Part shown: one piece after another, positions 35,466-49,055 of the stretch | Position numbering within the stretch: the first letter of the stretch is position 1 | Layout of the letters: each line of letters begins with the position of its first letter | Assembly (NCBI RefSeq): GCF_011174675.1 | Contig: NZ_JAANIG010000027.1 | Span: forward strand, 1 to 64,000 | Reading direction: 5' to 3' | Origin: Perlabentimonas gracilis | Lineage (GTDB): Bacteria > Bacteroidota > Bacteroidia > Bacteroidales > Tenuifilaceae | DNA: 64,000 nt | Notes under the pieces: generated by a model | The model's input: the letters and a program-made list of their open reading frames with translations, nothing else | Database searches by the model: none | What the model was told of the DNA's origin: nothing | Translations under genes and position numbers: made by a program

Positions 35466-36527
35466 TTAAAACCTATTTCTATTGGCAAATGCCACTAAAG
35501 AAAGCATCACTGGAACTTCAACCAATACTCCTACCACAGTTACCAGTGCAGCTGGCGATTGCAACCCAAACAGCGCAATGGCAACCGCAACGGCCAGTTC
35601 AAAAAAGTTACTGGCACCTATCATGGCCGCCGGACCACACACAGGGTATGGTAGTTTTAACTTTTTGCCACCGTACCAAGCAATGAAGAAGATAAAGTAG
35701 GTTTGTATTACAAGTGGAACAGCGGCAAGTAGTATTATTAGGGGATTGCTAATAATGTTCTGACCTTGGAAGGCGAATAGTAAAACTAGTGTTACTAGCA
35801 AAGCAATGATGCTAACGGGCTTTAGCCTTGGTAAGAAAACTTCCTTGAACCACTTCTCTCCTCTACTACTTAGTAGAATTCGTTGGGTTATGACTCCTGC
35901 AACCAGAGGTACAACAACAAAAATTAGCACGCTAGCCACCAGGGTATCGTAGGGGATAACCACATCGGTAATGCCAAGTAATAGTCCAACAATTGGAATA
36001 AATGCAACAAGGATTATCAGATCGTTTACCGAGACTTGAACCAGTGTGTAGTTGGGGTCGCCGTCGGAAAGGTAACTCCATACAAATACCATAGCAGTAC
36101 AGGGGGCGGCTCCCAGTATAATGGCTCCAGCAATATATTCGCCCGCCATCGATGGATCAATCCATGCTTGGTAAAGTTTGGAGAAGAAAAGCCAAGCAAA
36201 GAAAGCCATGGTAAAAGGCTTAATAAGCCAGTTAATTATAAGGGTCCATACCACTCCTCTAGGCTTCTTCCCAATTTTTTTTATGCTCGAAAAATCCACC
36301 TGTAGCATCATGGGGTAAATCATGAGCCAGATTAGGATTGCCACAGGAATATTCACCCTTGCAATTTCAAGGCTGCTAATAAATTCAATGCTATCGCCAG
36401 CAATATGGCCTATGGCAATACCCACCAGTATTCCCAGGGCTACCCATATGGTTAGGTATTTTTCAAAAAGACCGATAGTTTTTTTAGGTTTACCGGTAAT
36501 TGTAATCTCCTTGAACTCTTTGCTCAT
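35466..36527 (-). CDS. acr3: ACR3-family arsenite efflux transporter
   Basis: 353 residues with about ten membrane segments. GAAPCTAMVFVW carries the conserved cysteine (about residue 141) needed for arsenite transport, and QVSVNDLI is another family motif. It exports As(III) using the proton gradient. It is the last gene of arsR-arsC-arsM-acr3. Confidence 0.93.
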   Translation of the reverse strand: MSKEFKEITITGKPKKTIGLFEKYLTIWVALGILVGIAIGHIAGDSIEFISSLEIARVNIPVAILIWLMIYPMMLQVDFSSIKKIGKKPRGVVWTLIINWLIKPFTMAFFAWLFFSKLYQAWIDPSMAGEYIAGAIILGAAPCTAMVFVWSYLSDGDPNYTLVQVSVNDLIILVAFIPIVGLLLGITDVVIPYDTLVASVLIFVVVPLVAGVITQRILLSSRGEKWFKEVFLPRLKPVSIIALLVTLVLLFAFQGQNIISNPLIILLAAVPLVIQTYFIFFIAWYGGKKLKLPYPVCGPAAMIGASNFFELAVAVAIALFGLQSPAALVTVVGVLVEVPVMLSLVAFANRNRF

Positions 36528-36556
36528 TGCTTTTCTTTTTTTATGGTTAGATATTA

Positions 36557-37363
36557 TTACACTTTTGTCCCACTCACAGTGATTGAGTATATGCCTATAT
36601 CGCCATTGGTAAAACTATGAATCTCATTATCGTTAAGATAATTCCTAAGAATACTCTCAGGAATATCAATTTTTCGCTGCTTGTGAACATTAACATTTTC
36701 AAAGCCCGCCTGCCTAATGGCATCAAGGTACTCTTCAATTGGTAACGCTCCAGATACACATCCAGCGTACATCTCGGCATCGGCTTTCAGTTTTTCTGGT
36801 AAATCGCCCTTAACAACCACATCGGATACACAGAAATGCCCGCCCGGCTTTAGTACCCTTAATATCTCTGCAAAAGCCTTGTTTTTATCGGGAACAAGGT
36901 TAAGCACGCAGTTTGAAATTACCACATCGAACTGGTTGCCCCCAAGGGGCATCTGCTCAATATCGCCTTTAACAAAGGTGACGTTGCTGTAGCCAAGTTT
37001 TGTTACATTATCATTTGCCTTGGCAAGCATGGCCTCGGAGAAATCGAGCCCAACAACCCTACCCTTTTCACCCACAATTGCTCTTGCTACAAAGCAATCA
37101 TTGCCTGCTCCGCTGCCCAAATCTAAAACGGCATCGCCCGTTTTAATGTTCGCAAACTCGGTTGGAATACCACAGCCCAAACCAAGGTCTGCATCGGGAT
37201 TATGACCATCAATATTGTTGTACTCATCGCCAATCATGCTAAAGCCAAACCCATCGCAGCAACTAGAGGTGCCACAGCACGATATGTCGAGTTTGAGGTT
37301 GCTGCTTTGGGCTATCTTGTCGTACTTCTCTCGTACGGAAATTTTTATATCGTTAGGTTTCAT
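36557..37363 (-). CDS. arsM: Arsenite S-adenosylmethionine methyltransferase
   Basis: 268 residues. LDLGSGAGNDC is the SAM-binding motif, and the arsenite-binding cysteines appear in the N-terminal CCGTSSCC, SNCVLNLVPDK and MYAGCVSGAL. It methylates As(III) to mono- and dimethyl forms. It begins 2 bp after the arsC stop, and acr3 follows after 29 bp. Confidence 0.92.
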   Translation of the reverse strand: MKPNDIKISVREKYDKIAQSSNLKLDISCCGTSSCCDGFGFSMIGDEYNNIDGHNPDADLGLGCGIPTEFANIKTGDAVLDLGSGAGNDCFVARAIVGEKGRVVGLDFSEAMLAKANDNVTKLGYSNVTFVKGDIEQMPLGGNQFDVVISNCVLNLVPDKNKAFAEILRVLKPGGHFCVSDVVVKGDLPEKLKADAEMYAGCVSGALPIEEYLDAIRQAGFENVNVHKQRKIDIPESILRNYLNDNEIHSFTNGDIGIYSITVSGTKV

Positions 37364-37365
37364 GG

Positions 37366-37785
37366 CTATGCTTTAATTTCATCAGCATAAAATTTATGGA
37401 ATCGCTCCTTGATCTGATCCCTGACCCTGCGGAACTCACTCCATATAAACTCATCGGTTCCGGTGGCGTGGCTGGGATCCTCAAAGCCAATGTGCAGGCG
37501 ATGCTTAACCTTTCCAAAGAATGCGGGGCAGGTCTCGTTGGCATCATCGCAAACTGTGATCACGTAGTCCCACTCGTCGTTCAGGTACTCATCAACCATT
37601 TTTGGTGTGTGATGGCTAATGTCGATACCCACCTCGCTCATTACCTTAACCGCCCTGGGGTTTACCTGTGCGGCTGGCTGGGTTCCTGCGGAACGAACAG
37701 TAATTTCATTGTCGAATGATTGTAAAAATCCGTGAGCCATTTGGCTGCGGCAGCTATTGCCGGTGCAGAGAATTAGAATTTTCAT
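37366..37785 (-). CDS. arsC: Arsenate reductase, LMW-PTP type, second copy
   Basis: 139 residues. The P-loop CTGNSCRSQMAHG and the VCDDANETC pair match thioredoxin-coupled ArsC. It closely resembles the arsC at 2761-3204 but lacks the Cys-rich tail. It supplies arsenite to ArsM and Acr3. Confidence 0.92.
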   Translation of the reverse strand: MKILILCTGNSCRSQMAHGFLQSFDNEITVRSAGTQPAAQVNPRAVKVMSEVGIDISHHTPKMVDEYLNDEWDYVITVCDDANETCPAFFGKVKHRLHIGFEDPSHATGTDEFIWSEFRRVRDQIKERFHKFYADEIKA

Positions 37786-37802
37786 GGTTGTAGTTTATTG
37801 TT

Positions 37803-38141
37803 TTAATAATAATTATTTGAGCACGATACGTTTTGCAAATCAATAGTAGAGAAGAACCCATTAAAAAGATTTAAAAATCTTTCAAGTTCGGTTGCGCATA
37901 TGCAATAATTTATCTTTAGCCCATCAATAGTTCCGTTAATAAGCCCCAAGTCTCTCAACTCTTTTAGATGCTGTGATACGGTTGTTCGGCTCAAAGGCAA
38001 ATGCTCAGAGATATCGCCCGAGATACAGGTTTTTGTTTCGGCCAAGTACTTTAGTATAGCTAGCCTTGCTGGGTGCGATATAACCCTTGCAAATTTTGCT
38101 AACTCCTGCAGCTCTTTGTCAAATTTTTCTGATTTATTCAT
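37803..38141 (-). CDS. arsR: ArsR-family repressor of the ars operon
   Basis: 112 residues, winged helix with PLSRTTVSQHLKELRDLG. Cysteines in TKTCISGD and NYCICATE are candidate As(III) ligands, at the same places as in the ArsR at 3243. It heads arsC-arsM-acr3 and should repress its own promoter. Confidence 0.9.
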   Translation of the reverse strand: MNKSEKFDKELQELAKFARVISHPARLAILKYLAETKTCISGDISEHLPLSRTTVSQHLKELRDLGLINGTIDGLKINYCICATELERFLNLFNGFFSTIDLQNVSCSNNYY

Positions 38142-38493: not shown

Positions 38494-38940
38494 TTAATCA
38501 TCTTCCCCAATAAACTTCAGCGCATTGTTCCCTCGCAGGTAGTTAGCAAGTTCAAGCAATCCATCGGAAAGGTACTTAACCTTGTAGCCCTGCGTTTTTA
38601 GGTATACCATGGCTATAATTGCACGGTCGTTGTGAGGGCAGGCGGTAACAATTAGCTTATCCTTGCTGATTTTATGCAGATTCTTAGGTAGTTCTGGTAA
38701 GGGAATGCTTATGGCAAAAGGCATATTCCACGATTTAAACTCCTCCTCAAAGCGAATATCAACCAGTTGAACTTCCCCTTTTTTGATAAGATCTGCCAGT
38801 TGGCTGCTTCTAATTTTCATCTCAATTCGTGCTTCATAATCGAAGTTGAGCAGGTAGTTTTCAATAGTTAGCTTCTGTCCCTTAGACGTAATGGACAAGC
38901 AGAAAAGCGTAAAAAATAGTATTAATGTTTTTAACTTCAT
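38494..38940 (-). CDS. Secreted rhodanese-like protein
   Basis: 148 residues with a signal peptide (LILFFTLFCLSITSKGQ). The rhodanese fold shows as VQLVDIRFEEEF and VTACPHNDRAI, where Cys lies in the active-site loop. It should act in the periplasm. It is 43 bp downstream of the rhodanese-porin fusion gene and is probably co-transcribed with it. Confidence 0.82.
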   Translation of the reverse strand: MKLKTLILFFTLFCLSITSKGQKLTIENYLLNFDYEARIEMKIRSSQLADLIKKGEVQLVDIRFEEEFKSWNMPFAISIPLPELPKNLHKISKDKLIVTACPHNDRAIIAMVYLKTQGYKVKYLSDGLLELANYLRGNNALKFIGEDD

Positions 38941-38983: not shown

Positions 38984-40423
38984 TTATAATCTGTACTCAA
39001 ATGAAAGCAGGATATGGTGCTGAAAATCTAAACTCGTATTCTCTGGACTCCATCCCTGATAGTTTATAGAAAGGTTAATGCCTTTTACCGGATTGTAGTG
39101 AATACCCGTGATGTAAGCATTACCGGTGCTGTCGAAGTACCAACCGTTTTGCTCACCGCTAAGTGAATTCGATTGTAAATTATCGTAACGGGCAAAGAGC
39201 TCAACTTTCTCGGCAACCCTTAAACTTCCGTAAATTGAAAACCCAAATAGGTTATGCTCGTTGATATTGAGATGATTCATGCGGTAGTTGTACTCGCCGC
39301 CAAGCCGAAATGCATTCTCGTGCTTATACCCTACGAATGCTGAAAGCAGCTGTTGGTCTGCTGGCTTGGCGGGGTTTTGCGAACTAGTAAAATCGTAAAA
39401 AAGTCGGGTTTGCAAACCTTCGATAGGATTAAAATTAAGCCCTGCCGCAAGTTTTACGTCACCGTATTGATCTTGGTCAAATCGAAAACCTTCACCGTTA
39501 GTTAGCGCCAAATCAAAACCAAACATCTTGTTAATTGTGAAGTAGGCAATAACGCCCAGGTCGGCACTTGGAATCCCGAAGTACTGATCCTGAAAAGTAG
39601 GGGCAAGGTAGCGGTAACCCCAAAATTTTTCCTGAGTGATGTAGTGGTTTTGAAGTATGCTTCCAGCTTGTATTTTTATAACTTCGTTAGGTTTCCACTC
39701 CAGCGAGGCAAACTTTAGGGTCATGGTGTGGTAGCTGCCCTCTTTGGATGAATTACTAACATTTAGCTCATTGCCAATTGGGTCGGTAATCTGAATTTGT
39801 CCTACCGTTGTGGGCCTCCCAGCATCGATAATAATTTTTCCGGCGAACTGCTCGCTATACTGATGTTCGTAGCCAAAATGTGCTCGTCCAAACCAAAATC
39901 CGTATTGCTTTTGTGCATTTTGGGTAGCGTTGTAATCGAAGTTACCAAAAACCTGCACAATGGGTTTACCTTTAGGTACTTTGCTATCTTTTGTTGTGGC
40001 AACGGGGGTTTTGGTTTCAGCTTGATAGCTGTTCCCCAAAACGGGTTCAAAACCATTGGCTTTCCATCCGGTTATCCCATCAACCATTTTCACAATATTG
40101 CCCTTGTACCCAATATCCTTTAGGATTTTCTCCATTTGGTTTATTCTATTGGTTTTGGTGCAGTAAATGTAAAGCGTTTTGTTGTGTTTAAGTTTTGCCA
40201 GCTTATCGCCCGCATCGTTGCTATATGCATCAATATTTACAGCATTAGCAATATGCCCAGCGTTAAACATTTCGGTGCTACGACCATCAACTATCACCGA
40301 GCGGCGCTTGCTGCGTTTCTCAATCATCGGCTTAAACTCGCTTGATGTTACCTCGGTTACGGTTTGCCCCATTGCTATGGATGAGAGCAGGAGAAAAATG
40401 GTAATGTTTAAAGCTACTTTCAT
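38984..40423 (-). CDS. Rhodanese domain fused to an outer-membrane porin barrel
   Basis: 479 residues in one uninterrupted frame. A signal peptide (ITIFLLLSSIAMGQ) is followed by a rhodanese domain at about 22-130 (VIVDGRSTEMFNAGHI, active loop YCTKTNR, DGITGWKANGF). A linker of about 25 residues leads to a beta-barrel of the phosphate-selective-porin type (about 155-479; FGNFDYNATQNAQ, FWFGRAHFGYEHQ) ending in LLSFEYRL. This would put a sulfurtransferase on the periplasmic side of an outer-membrane pore. I know of no described protein with this layout. The neighbours point to sulfur compounds as cargo. Confidence 0.78.
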   Translation of the reverse strand: MKVALNITIFLLLSSIAMGQTVTEVTSSEFKPMIEKRSKRRSVIVDGRSTEMFNAGHIANAVNIDAYSNDAGDKLAKLKHNKTLYIYCTKTNRINQMEKILKDIGYKGNIVKMVDGITGWKANGFEPVLGNSYQAETKTPVATTKDSKVPKGKPIVQVFGNFDYNATQNAQKQYGFWFGRAHFGYEHQYSEQFAGKIIIDAGRPTTVGQIQITDPIGNELNVSNSSKEGSYHTMTLKFASLEWKPNEVIKIQAGSILQNHYITQEKFWGYRYLAPTFQDQYFGIPSADLGVIAYFTINKMFGFDLALTNGEGFRFDQDQYGDVKLAAGLNFNPIEGLQTRLFYDFTSSQNPAKPADQQLLSAFVGYKHENAFRLGGEYNYRMNHLNINEHNLFGFSIYGSLRVAEKVELFARYDNLQSNSLSGEQNGWYFDSTGNAYITGIHYNPVKGINLSINYQGWSPENTSLDFQHHILLSFEYRL

Positions 40424-40561: not shown

Positions 40562-41342
40562 TTAGTAAAAGATTTTGAAAACCATAATGATGGCAGCAAT
40601 AAAAGAAGTGGAAGCAAAAATGATTTTAAGTTTTTTTGCATTAAACTTCACGGTCATTCGGGTTCCAACAAAAGCACCAATGACACCACTAACAGCAAGA
40701 GGTAACGCTATGGAGGCATCAAAATGGCCAGTGGTAAGATGCCCTAAAAATCCTGCCGAAGCAGTGAACATTACCAATGCGGTTGATGTACCCACGGCAA
40801 TGTGCATTGGCACGCCAATAGCCAAAACCATTAGCGGCACAAGGAACGAACCCCCCCGAAATACCAACCATCCCCGAAATAAATCCGGTGACCAAAACAA
40901 ATGGAATGGTAAGCAGCAGGTTAATCCTGTAGGCGTTTTCGCCTGATTTTAGTGTAATACAAAACCTATTATTCAGGTTCTTCTTCTCTTTAACGGGTTT
41001 AAGCATTAGAAACGATGCGATGGTGATAAAAACCGCAAAGACAATCTTTAGCACTTTCCCATCGAAATTTCCAGAAAAAAAGCCTCCCAGAAAAGCCGAT
41101 AGGATGGTCATTGTTCCTATTAAAGCTATGAGTTTCCAATCGGTTATTCTTCGCTTTGCGAAGAAAAGGGTTGCTGTAAGCGACGAAATAACTAGGATAA
41201 ACTGACCCGTAGTGGCTGATTGGTGCATTCCTATTCCCGAAAGGGCGAGAGCCAGAACGTAGAAGTTTCCACCTCCACGCCCTGTTGTTGTCATTACTGC
41301 AGCAAGCAAAAATATAATAACGGCCAATAACAGAATATCCAT
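40562..41342 (-). pseudogene. TauE/SafE-family sulfite exporter, interrupted by a frameshift
   Basis: The N-terminal frame (41342 to about 40858) covers several membrane segments and ends near GFISGMVGISGG; the C-terminal frame (to 40562) continues SFLVPLMVLAIGVP. They are joined at a run of seven G on the minus strand (40851-40857). Six G would give a single protein of about 260 residues with the normal GISGGSFLVP motif. It may be a sequencing error, a phase-variable tract or a true mutation. It starts 3 bp after the rhodanese gene stop. Confidence 0.75.
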
Positions 41343-41345
41343 TGC

Positions 41346-41735
41346 CTAGCTGTTGATGTGTTTGTAAATTTTACCCGGAAGCAGGTTGGTCATAAGGTTG
41401 CTGTATCCTCCTTCAAGTATTTTCACCTGCTTAAACCCTTTGGCTTTAAGGTATGCAAACGCTATAACGCACCTTACCCCCGAAGAGCAGAATATGCCAA
41501 TAAGCTTATCCTTTGGTATTTCGTTAATCCTTTTAGGAATTTCATTTAAAGGAATTTCAAGCACAGGTATATGTAGCTTTAGATGAAACTTTACTGTTTG
41601 CGTTTCTTCCGATGCGCGCACATCTAAAAAAACTGCTTCTTTTGATTTTAGGAAAGCATCTGGCTCAATTTTATGCTGTGCGGTTGCAAAAAAAATGAAA
41701 TCCATCTCTTCAATTACATTTTCTAACTCATTCAT
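41346..41735 (-). CDS. Cytoplasmic rhodanese-like sulfurtransferase
   Basis: 129 residues, no signal peptide. VFLDVRASEETQ and the active loop FCSSGVRCV (catalytic Cys in CSSGVR) are clear. It lies between an ArsR gene and the TauE/SafE gene, an arrangement resembling sulfide-responsive loci of the BigR type. Confidence 0.85.
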   Translation of the reverse strand: MNELENVIEEMDFIFFATAQHKIEPDAFLKSKEAVFLDVRASEETQTVKFHLKLHIPVLEIPLNEIPKRINEIPKDKLIGIFCSSGVRCVIAFAYLKAKGFKQVKILEGGYSNLMTNLLPGKIYKHINS

Positions 41736-41795: not shown

Positions 41796-42128
41796 TTACT
41801 TAATAATCTTCATAAAGCACTCTGCTTGACACCCCGAGTGATCACTAGTGCTAATTCTTTGGGCACATTTAAAAAACTCGAACAGGCAGGGAATGTTAAG
41901 CTTGTAGTACACGCTGTTCTTATTCTTTTCGCCCACAACTATTTGGTATCGTTTCATTATATCGAGATGCTTTGACATGGTTGAAATATCAATGCCTACC
42001 ATGTCAGCCAGTTCCGAAACTGTATGTGGCTCCTTGTTGATGACATCAAGTATAAAAAGCCGGGTAGGGTGCGATAGGGCTTTAAAAATGCCTGCTTCCT
42101 TTTGGTAAATATTGGTTATAACCGTCAT
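41796..42128 (-). CDS. ArsR-family regulator, possibly sulfur-responsive
   Basis: 110 residues, winged helix with VSELADMVGIDISTMSKHL. Cysteines lie in the C-terminal part (IPCLFEFFKCAQ and DHSGCQAEC). It precedes a rhodanese and a TauE/SafE gene. In BigR/SqrR-type regulators a Cys pair senses persulfide; here the positions differ, so the ligand is unknown. Confidence 0.82.
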   Translation of the reverse strand: MTVITNIYQKEAGIFKALSHPTRLFILDVINKEPHTVSELADMVGIDISTMSKHLDIMKRYQIVVGEKNKNSVYYKLNIPCLFEFFKCAQRISTSDHSGCQAECFMKIIK

Positions 42129-42164
42129 GTGCACTTAGTTTTTAGTAAAACCTACTTGGTTAAT

Positions 42165-42203: not shown

Positions 42204-42740
42204 TTATGGTTGCGTCATCCTAAAATTTTTATTCCCAATAATCCATTCCATCAGGTATCCGATGATAATAAACACAGCAAGAGTTATGAGCGAGCGTAGG
42301 AGGGAAAACTTTAGCCCAAGAAAACCAATTTCGAAGGTGAGCATTGGGATTTTTATGGTGGAGTAGGCACCTAGGTATATAAACACATTTTTAACCGAGC
42401 AGCCCTTTTTCCAGAGTAAATAGGCAAACGGAAACGTGCCGTATAGCGGTCCAGCCTGAAGCGTGGCCAAAACGATAACCAGCAACGTACCTTTTATTCC
42501 CGACTCGTGGCCAATATGTTTCTCAACCCTGTCGCGAGGAACCCAAACATCGAATAGTCCAATCAGAATAAACATCAAGGGCAGAAATAGCATCATCTCC
42601 ACAAAGAAATCCCAGAAGTTTTTCGACACCTCTTTACCTATGGCAAAATCAAATAGCCACGAAAGTCCAATTAGTAATCCAAAGAGGATTACAAATGAGT
42701 ATTTTAGTATGGGTTTAACTTTAAGTGGCATTTTTAACAT
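42204..42740 (-). CDS. Half-size permease, second part of a split pair
   Basis: 178 residues with about four membrane segments. It starts in a TGATG overlap with the upstream gene, so the two are translationally coupled. Motifs such as FGLLIGLSWLFDFAIG and LATLQAGPLYGTFPFAYLL match half-size members of the DUF318/ArsP-like permease group. Cargo unknown. Confidence 0.72.
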   Translation of the reverse strand: MLKMPLKVKPILKYSFVILFGLLIGLSWLFDFAIGKEVSKNFWDFFVEMMLFLPLMFILIGLFDVWVPRDRVEKHIGHESGIKGTLLVIVLATLQAGPLYGTFPFAYLLWKKGCSVKNVFIYLGAYSTIKIPMLTFEIGFLGLKFSLLRSLITLAVFIIIGYLMEWIIGNKNFRMTQP

Positions 42741-43210
42741 CAATAGAATAATCCGATTATTAATGCACAAATTACGGCTCCAACTAAGCTTAATCCATTT
42801 CGGAGAAGGCTAACCCGCCAGCCAAAGTATTGCTTCTCAATTGGCAGAGTGAAAATTCCAACCATTAGCAGCGTGGTGATAAACATAGCCAAAACGGGGT
42901 ACGAAACACCACTTTTAATTAGCACGCTAGCCAGGGGAAAGGCAATAAATCCGGGAATTAATGATAAAGAGCCAGTGATGCCTGCAATAATGTACCCCTC
43001 AACCCCTGAACTTTCGCCCATCCACAGCACTAATTTATCGTTGGGGACAAGGTATAAGAATATGCTAACCAAAATAAGTACATTGATAAGCGTTGGGAGC
43101 AGTTTAAGGAACATCATCAACCCACGCTTTAACCCATCCAGCGTTTTTTGCCTATTGGCAATTACCGAAATAGATATTGCAACTAGCGAGACGACGATTA
43201 GTAGTTTCAT
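42740..43210 (-). CDS. Half-size permease, first part of a split pair
   Basis: 156 residues from the ATG at 43210; about four membrane segments (LIVVSLVAISISVIA; IIAGITGSLSLIPGFIAF). It resembles half of a DUF318/ArsP-like permease. With the overlapping second gene it likely forms one transporter next to the ArsR/rhodanese genes. Confidence 0.72.
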   Translation of the reverse strand: MKLLIVVSLVAISISVIANRQKTLDGLKRGLMMFLKLLPTLINVLILVSIFLYLVPNDKLVLWMGESSGVEGYIIAGITGSLSLIPGFIAFPLASVLIKSGVSYPVLAMFITTLLMVGIFTLPIEKQYFGWRVSLLRNGLSLVGAVICALIIGLFY

Positions 43211-43368
43211 TCTAAACAAAATGAAGCATTAAACAGAAAACACAAAGGTATAAAACAGATGAATGTTTGTACCCTTGTGCTTTCAAAAATAACAATCGCT
43301 TACTACCACCCGTTTTTCTATGTTTAGGGATAGGGGGGCAATAAGCGATTATTGGACTATATCATTAA

Positions 43369-45396
43369 CTAGTTGATATGACTTTGAATTATTTTTAGGT
43401 TCTTGGTTAAGTTCCCTTCAATATCTGCAAATGCTTTGAACTGGCCTTCAAGTTCAGCTCTGGCCTTATCAACAGCTTCGTACTTGGGCTTAAATTCCTC
43501 AATGACAGCCTCCAACTCAGCAATGCCTGGTATTTGAGGGATTTCTATTCCTAACCCTTTCATGGCGGGCTCTAGGAGTTTCATTGCAGCATTAGCAATG
43601 TAATCGGCTTTGGAGAGGGCGTCCTTAACAGAAAAACCAAATACCTTTTGGCTTAAAACCTTGTCTATCTCCTTAGTAACTTTACCAACTTGGTTTAATG
43701 CAGGCTCAATGGCCTTTATCCCCCCCTCAACGGGTGCAATAACTTTTGATACCTCAATTACCATATTTGCAGCTTTCACCACTTCGTTTGTGGTATTGTT
43801 AAAACCTTTAAATTGAGTTTCGGCTACATTCAGACTTTTGTTTAGTTCCCTTATCGCCGCCTCAATTGCCTTAAGCGCCTCAACATCTTTCACCTTATGA
43901 ATGTTGTTCTCAAGGTCTCTTGCTGTTTTCTGGCCGCTAGTCATGGCGTTGTTTATGCTCTTCATTTTGTCGCTAGTGGAGTTAGAAACACTCTTCATCT
44001 TTGCTGTTGCGTTTTTTGCAGGTGTGATAAATGGTTTCTCGGCTTTATTAAAAGTTGACACACTTTTACTAACAGGAACCTTGGCCATAAAAACTGCCCT
44101 GTCCACACCAGCAGCAACAATTCCTATAACCGGTATTAAACTAATTGGTTTTAGAGCTGCGTTAGCGGTTCCCATAGTTTTGTCAATTTTCTTAAGAGAA
44201 CTTGATATGTACGTAATTTTACCCATTACTTCATCGGCAGAGTTGGCGGCCTTGTTAACCGTATTCACGCTGCCCTGTATTTCATTGTATTCCCTTTGAG
44301 TGCTGGCAACATTTTTCTGAAACACAATAATCTCTTGGCGTATGGTAAGGCTATATATTCTAGCCTCGGTGTCTTTATAGTTGGGAACCCATTTCTGAGC
44401 GTTCTCATACATCTGCTTAACCTCAGCCAAGTTAACGTTAGGCTGTCGCTCGGCAGCTACGGCCTCTTGGTAGTAAGCCTCTGCAATAGTTGGTTTAATC
44501 TCCTCCTGCAGTCTTGCGGCTTCGGTATTGTCTTTGTCCCAGCCAACGGCCCAACCATACAGCTGCTCGGCGCGCAGCAACGAGGGGATATCGCCCTTTG
44601 ATGTGTGTGCCTTTCCATCCTCGGTTAGTAGTTTCGACACTCTTTTTGAAGTATATACATACTCCTCATCGGCTCGTGCAGTATCGTTAAGTAGCGACTT
44701 TGCGTGGAAAAAAGCTTGGGCTGCAGGTATTACCTTCTCCCAGGTGTCGGCATCTTTAAATTTATCTCCATATGCAAATAGCTCGTTCTGGAAGTTTTTT
44801 AACGATTCTTGCCTTTTTTCAGTACCAGATTCGGTGTAGCGGTTGTGCCCTGTTGCAAAAATTGAGTTTGCGTTAGTAACCTCTTCTCTAGTTGTGCTTG
44901 CATGCAGTTTCTGTACAGCAAAATTATAGAAGACTGTATATGCGTATTCTTTTGCTTCTTCCTTATGGCTAGAGTAGTCGATGAATTTGGTTTCCCATTG
45001 CCACTTGTTTTTATGATGCTTTAAAGGCATATCAATTTTGGCGATGTTGCTGTAGATATCAACAAGCGTGCTGTAGATATGCAGTCTTCTTACTGCTTGG
45101 GCAGTATCCTTGGTGTTCTCGTACTGCTTTAGCTCAGCATGAATCTTCTGCATGGTGTTATCGAAGTTCTCGTACAGAAACTCCTTGGAGTTAGTATAGG
45201 CACGATCGGCAAGAACCCCTTGTGTAGCTAGGTATATTGCCTCAATTTCCATGTTGTCGCGGTATAGACTTCTTGCGTCTTGGTAGTATGTTCTCGACGG
45301 GGAACTGAGCTTGTTGTGTGCGCCACAACTTGTAAGCAGCGTAATAGCTATTAAAACTGCTAGGTTTGTTAACTTAATTTTTGTAGAGATTTTCAT
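43369..45396 (-). CDS. Large coiled-coil lipoprotein of unknown function
   Basis: 675 residues with a lipoprotein signal (LIAITLLTSCG). Residues 30-330 are helical and TPR-like (EAIYLATQGV, AEQLYGWAVGWDKDN, KQMYENAQKW). Residues 330-675 are long coiled coils with many Ala, Lys and Ser and one hydrophobic stretch (LIPVIGIVAAGVD, about 415-430). The family is not recognised. It is a lone gene among the permease and ars-like genes. Confidence 0.6.
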   Translation of the reverse strand: MKISTKIKLTNLAVLIAITLLTSCGAHNKLSSPSRTYYQDARSLYRDNMEIEAIYLATQGVLADRAYTNSKEFLYENFDNTMQKIHAELKQYENTKDTAQAVRRLHIYSTLVDIYSNIAKIDMPLKHHKNKWQWETKFIDYSSHKEEAKEYAYTVFYNFAVQKLHASTTREEVTNANSIFATGHNRYTESGTEKRQESLKNFQNELFAYGDKFKDADTWEKVIPAAQAFFHAKSLLNDTARADEEYVYTSKRVSKLLTEDGKAHTSKGDIPSLLRAEQLYGWAVGWDKDNTEAARLQEEIKPTIAEAYYQEAVAAERQPNVNLAEVKQMYENAQKWVPNYKDTEARIYSLTIRQEIIVFQKNVASTQREYNEIQGSVNTVNKAANSADEVMGKITYISSSLKKIDKTMGTANAALKPISLIPVIGIVAAGVDRAVFMAKVPVSKSVSTFNKAEKPFITPAKNATAKMKSVSNSTSDKMKSINNAMTSGQKTARDLENNIHKVKDVEALKAIEAAIRELNKSLNVAETQFKGFNNTTNEVVKAANMVIEVSKVIAPVEGGIKAIEPALNQVGKVTKEIDKVLSQKVFGFSVKDALSKADYIANAAMKLLEPAMKGLGIEIPQIPGIAELEAVIEEFKPKYEAVDKARAELEGQFKAFADIEGNLTKNLKIIQSHIN

Positions 45397-45742: not shown

Positions 45743-47074
45743 CTACATCGCCCCAAAAATCATCCCGCTAATGGTGGCCATAATTACAACTAGTACTAGG
45801 TAAACCACGGTTTTTTTAGTTCCCATTACACCACGGATTACCAGCAGGTTGGGTAGCGATAGCGATGGCCCGGCCAGTAGTAATGCCAGTGCAGGGCCTT
45901 TGCCCATACCCGATGCAATTAGCCCTTGTATTATTGGCACCTCCGTTAGCGTGGCAAAGTACATGAATGCACCCACAATTGATGCGAAGAAGTTTGCAAA
46001 AATTGAGTTGCCACCAACAAGGTTCGATATCCAATGGCTTGGAATAATGCCAGGTATATTGGTCTCGTCGTGGGTTGAGCCAAGTAAAAATCCTGCTACA
46101 ATAACGCCCAATGCCAGTAATGGCATGATCTGCTTGGCAAAGTCCCATGAGGCTAGTGTCCATTCGCGATTCTCATCATCCCTTTTTAGCGTGATGATGC
46201 TAAGACCAGTAATGGCCACAAGCATAGGAACAAGTGGGCTTAGTGGTCCACCAATATATGTTGAAGCAAGCACACCTGATACGCCAGTGGCAACGGCTGC
46301 TGATATTACCCACCACCACTTAATCTTCAAAATTTTGATAAGCGAGTAAACCAAGCCTATACCGAAAATACTGGTGATGTACCACTTATTGCTCCATATA
46401 AAGTACCAGGCGCCGCTGGTTTCGTCGGCTGAGGGTTTGCCCCAGTTGGCGAATACCAAAATCAATACAAGGATAAAGAAATGGAAAGAGGTTTGCCACA
46501 TGGGTCGAGTTTCGGGAGGGAGCTGAATGTTCATTTGCTCCTCCTTCTTAGCTTTTTCCTCCTTACGATAAATAAACGACATAATGCTACCAATAACTAT
46601 GGCAAAAACCACTGCACCGATTATACGGGCAACTCCCATCTCGAACCCGAGGATTCGAGCGGTAAGAATTATTGCCAAAATATTAATGGCAGGCCCAGAG
46701 TATAGGAATGCCACAGCAGGCCCTAGGCCAGCACCACGCTTGTGAATGCTCGAGAAAAGGGGTAGAATGGTGCAGCTGCATACGGCCAGAATGGTTCCCG
46801 ATACCGAAGCCACAGTGTAGGCTATCCATTTCTTAGCATTGGCACCAAAGTACTTTAGCACCGCCCCCTGACTTACAAATACCGAGATTACGCCCGCAAT
46901 AAAGAATGCGGGAAGTAGGCATAGCACAACATGCTCCTGAGCGTACCACTTGGTTAAATCCAGGGTAGCATCCACCGCTGTGCGGAAACTAGCGCTATCA
47001 ATAGGCATAAAGAATGCCAGGGCAAAGAAAAATACAATCCAGTATAGGATTTGAAGTTCTTTTTTAATTTCCAT
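45743..47074 (-). CDS. YraQ/ArsP-family (UPF0718) permease
   Basis: 443 residues with ten or more membrane segments. CSCTILPLFSSIHKRGAGLG and YSGPAINILAIILTARILG are the family repeats, seen again at the C-terminal half (AGPSLSLPNLLVIRGVMG). ArsP members export trivalent organoarsenicals; others are uncharacterised. It lies last in the ArsR-thioredoxin-ArsF-ArsG-permease run. Confidence 0.82.
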   Translation of the reverse strand: MEIKKELQILYWIVFFFALAFFMPIDSASFRTAVDATLDLTKWYAQEHVVLCLLPAFFIAGVISVFVSQGAVLKYFGANAKKWIAYTVASVSGTILAVCSCTILPLFSSIHKRGAGLGPAVAFLYSGPAINILAIILTARILGFEMGVARIIGAVVFAIVIGSIMSFIYRKEEKAKKEEQMNIQLPPETRPMWQTSFHFFILVLILVFANWGKPSADETSGAWYFIWSNKWYITSIFGIGLVYSLIKILKIKWWWVISAAVATGVSGVLASTYIGGPLSPLVPMLVAITGLSIITLKRDDENREWTLASWDFAKQIMPLLALGVIVAGFLLGSTHDETNIPGIIPSHWISNLVGGNSIFANFFASIVGAFMYFATLTEVPIIQGLIASGMGKGPALALLLAGPSLSLPNLLVIRGVMGTKKTVVYLVLVVIMATISGMIFGAM

Positions 47075-47148: not shown

Positions 47149-47862
47149 CTAGGTGAATACAATAATTGTGTAGTACAGCCCAACCCCAATAAACAGCACG
47201 GCAACCACCCGGCGAAACCAAAGCTCAAAGGTTTTTATCTTGTTGTAAACGCTACCTATACTAGAAACGCTGAAGGCCAATATCCACGAGAAGATAATTA
47301 CTGGCAGCCCTGTTGCAATGGCAAAGACAAACGGTAGCAAGTAACCAGTTGTCGATGAAACCGACAGTGGAATTAGCCCACCAAAGTATAGCACTCCGCT
47401 ATAGGGACAAAAGGCCAGGGCGAACACAATGCCGAGAAGCAATGCACCCCAATGGCTTCCCCCGCTGGCTTTTTCCTCGGCTTTAGCCGAGAGTTTTCCC
47501 GAGCCTTTAAGGTTTATTTTAATAAGATCGAGCATGAACACCCCAATTATAATGAGTAGTGGGCCAATAAACATCTCGCCATAGGTGCTAATAGCCTTTT
47601 GTATTTTAAAGATACTTGAGCCCTGCCTTAAAATTACTATCAGAATAGTTCCAAGCAATGTATAGGTTATTGCACGCCCAAGGGTGTATATTACACCGTT
47701 GATAAAAACCCTTCTTCTGTTCTGTACATCCTTGCTAATAAAGCCAATGGCCGAGATGTTGGTGGCCAAGGGGCAGGGGCTAATGGCGGTCATTAACCCC
47801 AACGCAAAGGCTGTAAGTATAGGGAACTGAGAGTTGTCTATTAGGTTTTGCAGAAGCTCCAT
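47149..47862 (-). CDS. ArsG-like efflux permease (CcdA-type)
   Basis: 237 residues, six or seven membrane segments. AISPCPLATNISAIGF and AFCPYSGVLYFGG carry the paired Cys-Pro motifs of the CcdA/DsbD-like fold. The family is associated with aromatic arsenical efflux (ArsG). It starts 3 bp after the ArsF-like gene. Confidence 0.78.
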   Translation of the reverse strand: MELLQNLIDNSQFPILTAFALGLMTAISPCPLATNISAIGFISKDVQNRRRVFINGVIYTLGRAITYTLLGTILIVILRQGSSIFKIQKAISTYGEMFIGPLLIIIGVFMLDLIKINLKGSGKLSAKAEEKASGGSHWGALLLGIVFALAFCPYSGVLYFGGLIPLSVSSTTGYLLPFVFAIATGLPVIIFSWILAFSVSSIGSVYNKIKTFELWFRRVVAVLFIGVGLYYTIIVFT

Positions 47863-47865
47863 GGG

Positions 47866-48291
47866 CTACAAGTGATTGTTTACCTCGTTAACAATTGTTT
47901 CCTTAAGCACATCGGGATTTCTAACTGCATTGGCAAATGCAGCGCTGGTTAGGTTTACGTGCTCGTTACCCGATACAATAATCAGGCTGCTGCCTGCTAT
48001 CTCGTACTTTGTGGAAATGGCCTCGTTGGCTTTTTCTGTATAGTCGAGTTCAACAAATTGTACATCTGCGTTATCTGCAAAATTCTCAGAAATGGTTTGC
48101 CCTGCCACATCCTGAATAGCTAAGCAGGTTTTGCAGCGTTGCTTACTGTGAAAGTAGTAAACCATTACCTTTGCCGTTTCGGCAACTTCAGCCTTTGTAG
48201 TTTCTGTAGATTTTTTTTCGGTTGAGCCTCCGCAGCTTACCATAATCATTGCTATTAACGCAATCGATAGTACTAATGCAATTCTTTTCAT
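47866..48291 (-). CDS. ArsF-like lipoprotein (nitrophenyl-arsenical reductase subunit family)
   Basis: 141 residues with a lipoprotein signal (IALIAMIMVSCGG). VYYFHSKQRCKTCLAI has the CxxC motif of a thioredoxin-like fold. ArsF-family proteins accompany ArsG and are proposed to help reduce aromatic nitro-arsenicals. Direct evidence is from other species. Confidence 0.75.
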   Translation of the reverse strand: MKRIALVLSIALIAMIMVSCGGSTEKKSTETTKAEVAETAKVMVYYFHSKQRCKTCLAIQDVAGQTISENFADNADVQFVELDYTEKANEAISTKYEIAGSSLIIVSGNEHVNLTSAAFANAVRNPDVLKETIVNEVNNHL

Positions 48292-48410: not shown

Positions 48411-48653
48411 TTATTGCTTATTTTTTGTGATGATCTCCTTTAGCTCGCTAACGCCTGGTACCTTACCCGAGAAGATTACCTTCTCGTCGATTACCAATGC
48501 TGGTGTGCGCATTACGCCGTAGTTCATGATTGCTACAATGTCGTCAATCTTTGTAATATTGGCATCAATGCCAAGTTCGCTAACCGCATTTTGTGTGGCC
48601 TGTTCGAGTGTTTTACACTTTGGGCAGCCGGGACCTAGTACCTTTATTTCCAT
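48411..48653 (-). CDS. Thioredoxin-like protein (CPKC)
   Basis: 80 residues; LGPGCPKCKTLE is the redox site, and MRTPALVIDEKV is the cis-Pro region. It resembles the protein at 31667-31906. It probably passes electrons to the ArsF/ArsG pair or to the permease. Confidence 0.85.
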   Translation of the reverse strand: MEIKVLGPGCPKCKTLEQATQNAVSELGIDANITKIDDIVAIMNYGVMRTPALVIDEKVIFSGKVPGVSELKEIITKNKQ

Positions 48654-48761: not shown

Positions 48762-49055
48762 TCATTCAAAAAACTCACCCATCATCCGCTTTGCTTCTTC
48801 CCATCCCTCTTTGCGAATGCAGTACTTAATTTTGGGCGGATTAAACTCGCCTTGTATCAATCCTGCCTCTTTAAGCTCGCTTAAGTGCTGCGATAGCGTG
48901 CTACGGGCAATGGGAAGGTCGTTGGTTATATCGCCGCTGTAACAGCAGCTTTGCTTCGAGAGAATTTCCATTATTGAAACCCTTGCCGGATGACTCAACG
49001 CTTTGGCGTAACGGGCTAGGGCTATTTGTCTATCGGTATAGTTTGGCTTTGTCAT
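48762..49055 (-). CDS. ArsR-family repressor of the ArsF/ArsG-like operon
   Basis: 97 residues, winged helix with PIARSTLSQHLSELKEAG. QSCCYSGD and KYCIRKEG provide cysteines. It heads the thioredoxin-like/ArsF/ArsG/permease run and is preceded by two matching inverted repeats. Confidence 0.88.
   Translation of the reverse strand: MTKPNYTDRQIALARYAKALSHPARVSIMEILSKQSCCYSGDITNDLPIARSTLSQHLSELKEAGLIQGEFNPPKIKYCIRKEGWEEAKRMMGEFFE

Follow-up and report, generated by a model that had tools for sequence, protein, structure and literature searches.

The locus analysed here raises the question of what a protein of Perlabentimonas gracilis might do in which a rhodanese domain and an outer-membrane porin barrel are joined in one chain. 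The initial annotation of the window (the whole stretch of 64,000 nucleotides that was analysed) had read a signal peptide, a rhodanese, and a porin-type barrel in one frame, and this reading was confirmed at exactly 38984-40423(-), where a single open frame of 479 amino acids is supported by a Pfam match and an AlphaFold2 model. The product comprises a signal peptide (residues 1-19, MKVALNITIFLLLSSIAMG; 40367-40423(-); read from the sequence, with a model helix at residues 2-14), a rhodanese domain (residues 20-128; 40040-40366(-)), a linker without a hydrophobic signal sequence (residues 129-149; 39977-40039(-)), and a 16-strand porin barrel (residues 150-479; 38987-39976(-)). The full-length model, built with 50 related sequences, has a mean pLDDT of 88.2 and a disordered linker (pLDDT <50 at residues 132-147), and it shows a separate confident rhodanese and a separate 16-strand barrel, as the structure-prediction check proposed with the annotation had anticipated.

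The Pfam profile PF00581 matches residues 34-122 (E = 3.3e-13; 50.4 bits vs. a cut-off of 22.2), and the rhodanese blocks reach a pLDDT of ~91-96 in the full-length model and 93.2 when the domain is predicted alone. Nearly all of the top 50 PDB matches to the lone-domain model are rhodaneses (Z 12-15.3), GlpE-type proteins among them, and the Leishmania As/Sb reductase 2j6p is also present (Z 12.0). The loop reads Y-C88-T-K-T-N-R93 (YCTKTNR; C88 to R93 at 40145-40162(-)), a six-residue Cx4R motif whose Cys and Arg do not vary among 16 aligned rhodaneses. Rhodaneses with this motif are transferases of sulfane sulfur, and both sequence and model indicate that the domain is complete with an intact active site. 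The second exported rhodanese that had been reported to follow the fusion is present as well (148 aa, loop CPHNDR; 38494-38940(-); PF00581, 44.7 bits).

The barrel half has no Pfam match and was identified by its fold and its relatives. AlphaFold2 places 16 strands between residues 152 and 478; strands 5 and 6 are separated by two short helices (259-268 and 277-282) that form an L3-like insertion. The best VIA-align matches are OprO (Z 25.3, rmsd 2.7, 296 residues), OprP (25.2), and PorB (25.1), with PorB and other porins lying within 1 Z unit of OprO/OprP and matches spanning 283-296 residues; closure of the barrel was read from alignment to these closed barrels, not from coordinates. A barrel-profile sequence search of the PDB gave weak lysozyme noise only. 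Porin_O_P (PF07396) had no match in the window's own genome, where two control profiles did match, and none among 50 relatives, while BBP2 porins (PF07642) matched 4 of these 50 (best 8.4e-8) and not the window protein.

The genomic surroundings of the fusion are rich in arsenic-resistance genes. On its 5' side lie, in order, an ArsR-type regulator that opens the arsEFG operon (48762-49055(-); NF033788, 55.2 bits, cut-off 55), an ArsE family thioredoxin-like protein (48411-48653(-); TIGR00412, 115.8 bits, cut-off 62), an ArsF family protein (47866-48291(-); NF040494, 93 bits, cut-off 60), an ArsG efflux permease (47149-47862(-); NF040495, 314.6 bits, cut-off 200), an ArsP-type permease of 443 aa (45743-47074(-); PF03773, E = 4.7e-74), a coiled-coil gene, two half-size ArsP-type permeases (42204-43219(-), i.e., 42204-42770 and 42740-43219; PF03773), and a module of arsR, rhodanese, and TauE-type genes; arsE, arsF, and arsG form one run and all exceed curated NCBIfam cut-offs. 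Downstream of the fusion, the second exported rhodanese is followed by a second arsenic block (35466-38141(-)) composed of arsR (37803-38141), arsC (37366-37785), arsM (36557-37363; PRK11873, 326 bits), and acr3 (35466-36527; TIGR00832, 390 bits), in which arsC and arsR were named from their sequences and from conserved blocks in relatives. The two half-size ArsP-type genes overlap, are intact in three related loci (L033, L040, and L101), and precede a separate porin in L033 and L101; to judge from sequence, the pair looks like a working split transporter. The coiled-coil gene between the ArsP gene and this pair (43369-45396) encodes a lipoprotein-like product of 675 aa and was not seen at that site in the relatives read.

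Similar surroundings were found for barrel relatives in other genomes. One or more ars-cluster genes (arsR, ArsG, ArsP, acr3, arsC, or a DGC protein) occur within 5 kb of 37 of 42 non-redundant barrels (>=38% identity) vs. none of 14 distant barrels, counts that are not population frequencies since the barrels were collected for their similarity to the window protein and some contigs are short. Within 5 kb and on the same strand, ArsP-type genes accompany 30/42, arsR 31/42, and ArsG 24/42 barrels (ArsP-type neighbour, 42 vs. 14 barrels: p = 1.7e-6), and a rhodanese is fused or located within 5 kb in 15/42 arsenic-type barrels vs. 0/14 others (p = 0.012). The core order in these relatives is arsR-arsE-arsF-arsG-arsP-porin-DGC protein. 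It appears from this gene context that the barrel of the fusion belongs to a porin subfamily of arsenic-resistance operons, which was found only in Bacteroidales in the sequences gathered here. Four genomes of the same genus (G001-G004) contain no barrel match and keep the arsEFG-arsP core with no porin behind it, so the porin seems to be an optional accessory.

The L3-like constriction segment (residues 258-287, NHYITQEKFWGYRY...PSADLG; 39563-39652(-); from alignment and AlphaFold2) is the best-conserved part of the barrel. Its His260 is found in 98% of arsenic-type and in 0 of phosphate-type porins, and two basic residues elsewhere in the barrel differ in the same direction (R203, 95% vs. 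38%; R314, 100% vs. 22%). In the four loci examined, distant barrels (~30-34% identity) adjoin phosphate transporters, namely pstS-pstC-pstA-pstB-phoU in L106 and likewise in L113, and PHO4 permeases in L104 and L107. Considering these neighbours and the high ranking of OprO/OprP (level with PorB) in the fold comparison, the simplest reading of sequence and model is that an oxyanion porin was recruited into arsenic operons.

Most barrel relatives are separate exported proteins without rhodanese, including the closest ones (L033, L035, L101, and L102; up to 70-71% identity), each of which has its own signal peptide, and L059 has neighbouring genes for an exported rhodanese (133 aa) and a porin (362 aa) behind arsP. 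Separate porins are also encoded in two cultured relatives, Gaoshiqia sediminis A06 and Marinifilum breve JC075 (L037 and L052). Since most arsenic-type porins have no fused rhodanese, sulfur transfer should not be essential to the channel. A homologue search elsewhere in Bacteroidota, as had been recommended, detected four further fusions (L032, L040, L041, and L087), giving five in four Bacteroidales genomes; L032 and L040 are in one MAG, and L040 is cut by a contig end. It had been considered that the two parts might always be separate genes in homologues, which does not hold, although separate genes are the commoner state. In every one of the five, a signal peptide precedes a rhodanese with the Cx4R loop, and a linker that has no hydrophobic stretch leads to the barrel; PF00581 matches 5 of 50 aligned sequences, the same number as the fusions. 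An assembly artefact was ruled out because four genomes carry fusions and at the junction the barrel no longer has a signal peptide of its own, features of sequence that mark the fusion as a genuine gene architecture. Searches with the fusion protein gave no match in plasmids and only its own genome in partial class-wide and phylum-wide samples at E 1e-60.

Among fusion pairs with unsaturated dS, dN/dS is ~0.18-0.39 for the rhodanese part and ~0.08-0.20 (<0.21) for the barrel part, and the rhodanese part diverges faster (35% vs. 68% identity between the window and L032 proteins). Recurrence, the features kept in all five fusions, and low dN/dS together indicate, at the sequence level, that selection favours the join or at least tolerates it. 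The fusions are scattered on the porin tree (minimum 5 changes, a count that cannot tell gain from loss), and a single origin without loss was rejected, as were single clades of all five fusions (p-AU = 2.6e-60) and of four without L087 (p = 0.007); both groups were fixed by architecture, whereas four-row and three-row subsets were picked after the tree was seen. In the rhodanese tree, the five fused domains and four single ones fall in one group (98/91) with the single ones inside; a first alignment with single rhodaneses (A1) was excluded because MAFFT had placed them on the barrel. The rhodanese tree is compatible with fusion or splitting having recurred, and the scatter on the porin tree means that one or the other took place more than once.

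The sulfur module of the window, which stands between the half-ArsP pair and the fusion, may provide a clue to how the fusion formed. It consists of an ArsR-type regulator (41796-42134(-); NF033788, 68.5 bits; 55% to the L148 copy), a rhodanese of 129 aa without signal peptide (41346-41735(-); 58% identical to the L148 module's rhodanese), and a TauE/SafE-type exporter (40562-41342(-); PF01925, and tblastn with an intact relative). Against the BigR model NF040642, the regulator scores 37.5 bits, below the cut-off of 155. A C7 run at 40851-40857 (G7 in the coding strand) splits the TauE-type gene into two frames, across both of which the intact L148 relative aligns; the break may be a true frameshift, phase variation, or a sequencing error. 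In L148, the ArsR-rhodanese-TauE module is 52-58% identical to that of the window, and the rhodanese is still separate. The single rhodaneses closest to the fused one came from four genomes; in two of these (L148 and L149, the latter with acr3 and arsC ~5 kb away) they adjoin TauE-type genes, and those of L147 and L150 have no TauE-type or such neighbours. Because the half-ArsP pair runs directly into the porin in genome G010 (L101) while the module lies between them in the window, gene order suggests that the fusion arose as a sulfur module entered between the half-ArsP pair and the porin and its last gene was joined to the porin. In L032, the fusion lies directly behind ArsP without a TauE or ArsR module.

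The claim that no protein of this architecture has been described stands in so far as searches of open-licence literature on rhodaneses and porins, barrels, or ars operons brought up no rhodanese-porin fusion, but two close precedents exist. Cyc2, a cytochrome fused to a 16-strand porin (PMC8406198), likewise carries an N-terminal redox/enzyme domain predicted at the periplasmic mouth of a 16-strand porin; however, this domain is a cytochrome rather than a rhodanese, and the protein serves iron oxidation and is not part of an arsenic operon. In Geobacter, the rhodanese ExtH and the OprO/P-like outer-membrane porin ExtI are encoded together and tied to toxic oxyanions, the extI mutant being impaired in selenite and tellurite reduction (PMC5877670, PMC6148476); in contrast to the fusion, they are separate genes in a cytochrome cluster without arsenic genes, ExtH, a lipoprotein, is classed with the extracellular components, and ExtI is filed as Porin_O_P, the family without a match in the window's genome. 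OprO and OprP share the 16-strand fold, and phosphate transporters adjoin the barrel's distant relatives, but their identity to the fusion barrel is 14% and they have no N-terminal enzyme. Described arsEFG/ArsP systems (Chen 2019, 2015, via PMC9144182) resemble the ArsE, ArsF, ArsG, and ArsP-type genes directly upstream of the fusion, whereas no outer-membrane porin or rhodanese fusion was seen in that description. Single-domain rhodaneses such as GlpE and PspE share the fold and Cx4R but are not tied to a membrane pore. The fusion is real, recurrent, and functionally suggestive, and it combines the features of Cyc2 (enzyme on porin) and ExtH/ExtI (rhodanese and porin) in one chain within an arsenic operon.

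Arsenic-resistance studies centre on inner-membrane pumps, and the crossing of the outer membrane by arsenicals is little studied. The porin subfamily tied to arsE-F-G-arsP operons may be a candidate for this route, in which the fused rhodanese hints at a role for sulfur chemistry. On balance, gene context and models make it somewhat probable that the fusion serves an arsenic-resistance operon as its outer-membrane arm, to which a sulfurtransferase is attached. As the porin subfamily belongs to arsenic operons, its cargo is more likely to be arsenic species, and sulfur would act as a co-substrate. Organoarsenicals reach the periplasm through ArsG and ArsP and arsenite through Acr3, and porin N-termini face the periplasm; we infer a periplasmic position, an arsenic cargo, and an export direction. 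From the signal peptide and porin topology, the rhodanese would sit on the periplasmic side, at the channel's inner mouth within the 16-strand design; ArsG, the ArsP-type permeases, and Acr3 of the cluster would bring arsenicals into the periplasm, and the channel would let them out across the outer membrane. The rhodanese might load sulfane sulfur (from thiosulfate, persulfide, or polysulfide) onto Cys88 and hand it to a pore-mouth acceptor, in our preferred reading an exported trivalent arsenical, which would become an anionic thiolated pentavalent species, leave via the basic pore, and re-enter cells less easily. That the rhodanese thiolates arsenic itself is speculative and somewhat unlikely, and it is improbable that the pore-mouth sulfurtransferase both thiolates periplasmic arsenicals and passes the thiolated anions through its own channel, thereby completing a two-membrane efflux. 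If true, biological arsenic thiolation, which is important in sulfidic water and the gut, would be linked to a defined gene.

The initial annotation had proposed that a sulfurtransferase tethered to a pore could handle sulfane sulfur. An undamaged Cx4R loop and a neighbouring arsR-rhodanese-TauE module agree with this idea, which missed the arsenic-operon setting. Plain sulfane-sulfur handling also fits the nearby TauE-type exporter and rhodaneses: the module might sense and clear sulfane sulfur and the pore release sulfite, thiosulfate, or thiocyanate, considering that the TauE-type, rhodanese, and ArsR genes lie directly upstream of the fusion, that L148 has an equivalent module with a separate rhodanese, and that comparable CsoR-PDO-TauE-RHOD circuits are known (PMC7533328). 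We regard this as unlikely, however, as the L032 fusion lacks such a module, in most genomes barrels of this family stand behind arsenic genes, the window's TauE is frame-broken, and the upstream ArsR is well short of the BigR cut-off. The direction of transport cannot be read from sequence, and the channel might instead admit arsenate, thioarsenate, selenite, or another oxyanion that the rhodanese processes on arrival. Such uptake, which has been suggested for Geobacter ExtH/ExtI, would be in line with the fold match to the uptake porins OprO/OprP, the distant relatives in phosphate-uptake operons, and the lower selenite/tellurite reduction upon loss of ExtI (PMC5877670). Yet the genes of the operon are for efflux permeases and detoxification, and none of the neighbours listed was seen to be a respiratory reductase of arsenate or selenite (no dedicated model used), which makes uptake quite unlikely.

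An arsenate reductase of the Acr2/Cdc25 type might also be envisaged for the rhodanese domain, given that Acr2 and Cdc25 share the rhodanese fold, that 2j6p is among the fold matches, and that the operon is an arsenic one; however, a cytosolic arsC is already present in the window, and the periplasm is without the usual glutathione/glutaredoxin partners. Because the loop is Cx4R in 5/5 fusions, whereas CDC25 enzymes that reduce arsenate are described as having HCx5R (PMC10135228), we consider this extremely unlikely. The two halves may, on the other hand, have been joined without a working link, through a recombination that gave the porin a new signal peptide carrying the rhodanese by chance, and barrels that stand alone in most genomes, the faster divergence of the rhodanese, and the scatter of fusions on the porin tree would all agree with this. 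It is nevertheless very unlikely in view of five fusions with Cx4R in each, dN/dS well below 1 where measurable, and the occurrence of an exported rhodanese as a gene adjoining the porin in L059.

Several other observations concern the neighbourhoods of these porins. In many loci the arsenic-type porin is followed by a small protein with a DGC domain (PF08859; e.g., L032:9410-9784), which lies within 5 kb in 23/42. A TolC-MFP-RND efflux set is located directly upstream of the second rhodanese-porin fusion of the MAG mentioned above (L040:2367-7993) and also upstream of a separate porin in L047/L090. Rhodaneses without an evident signal peptide recur beside arsenic-type porins (L035:6374-6859, L048:8974-9405, L036:9389-9802, and others); several have Cys-rich tails, and those of L036, L041, and L085 appear to be without the loop cysteine. 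In a related genome, an exported rhodanese is fused to a thioredoxin-like domain (L118:6238-7059), and similar two-domain frames are present in L136, L138, L142, L144, and L146.
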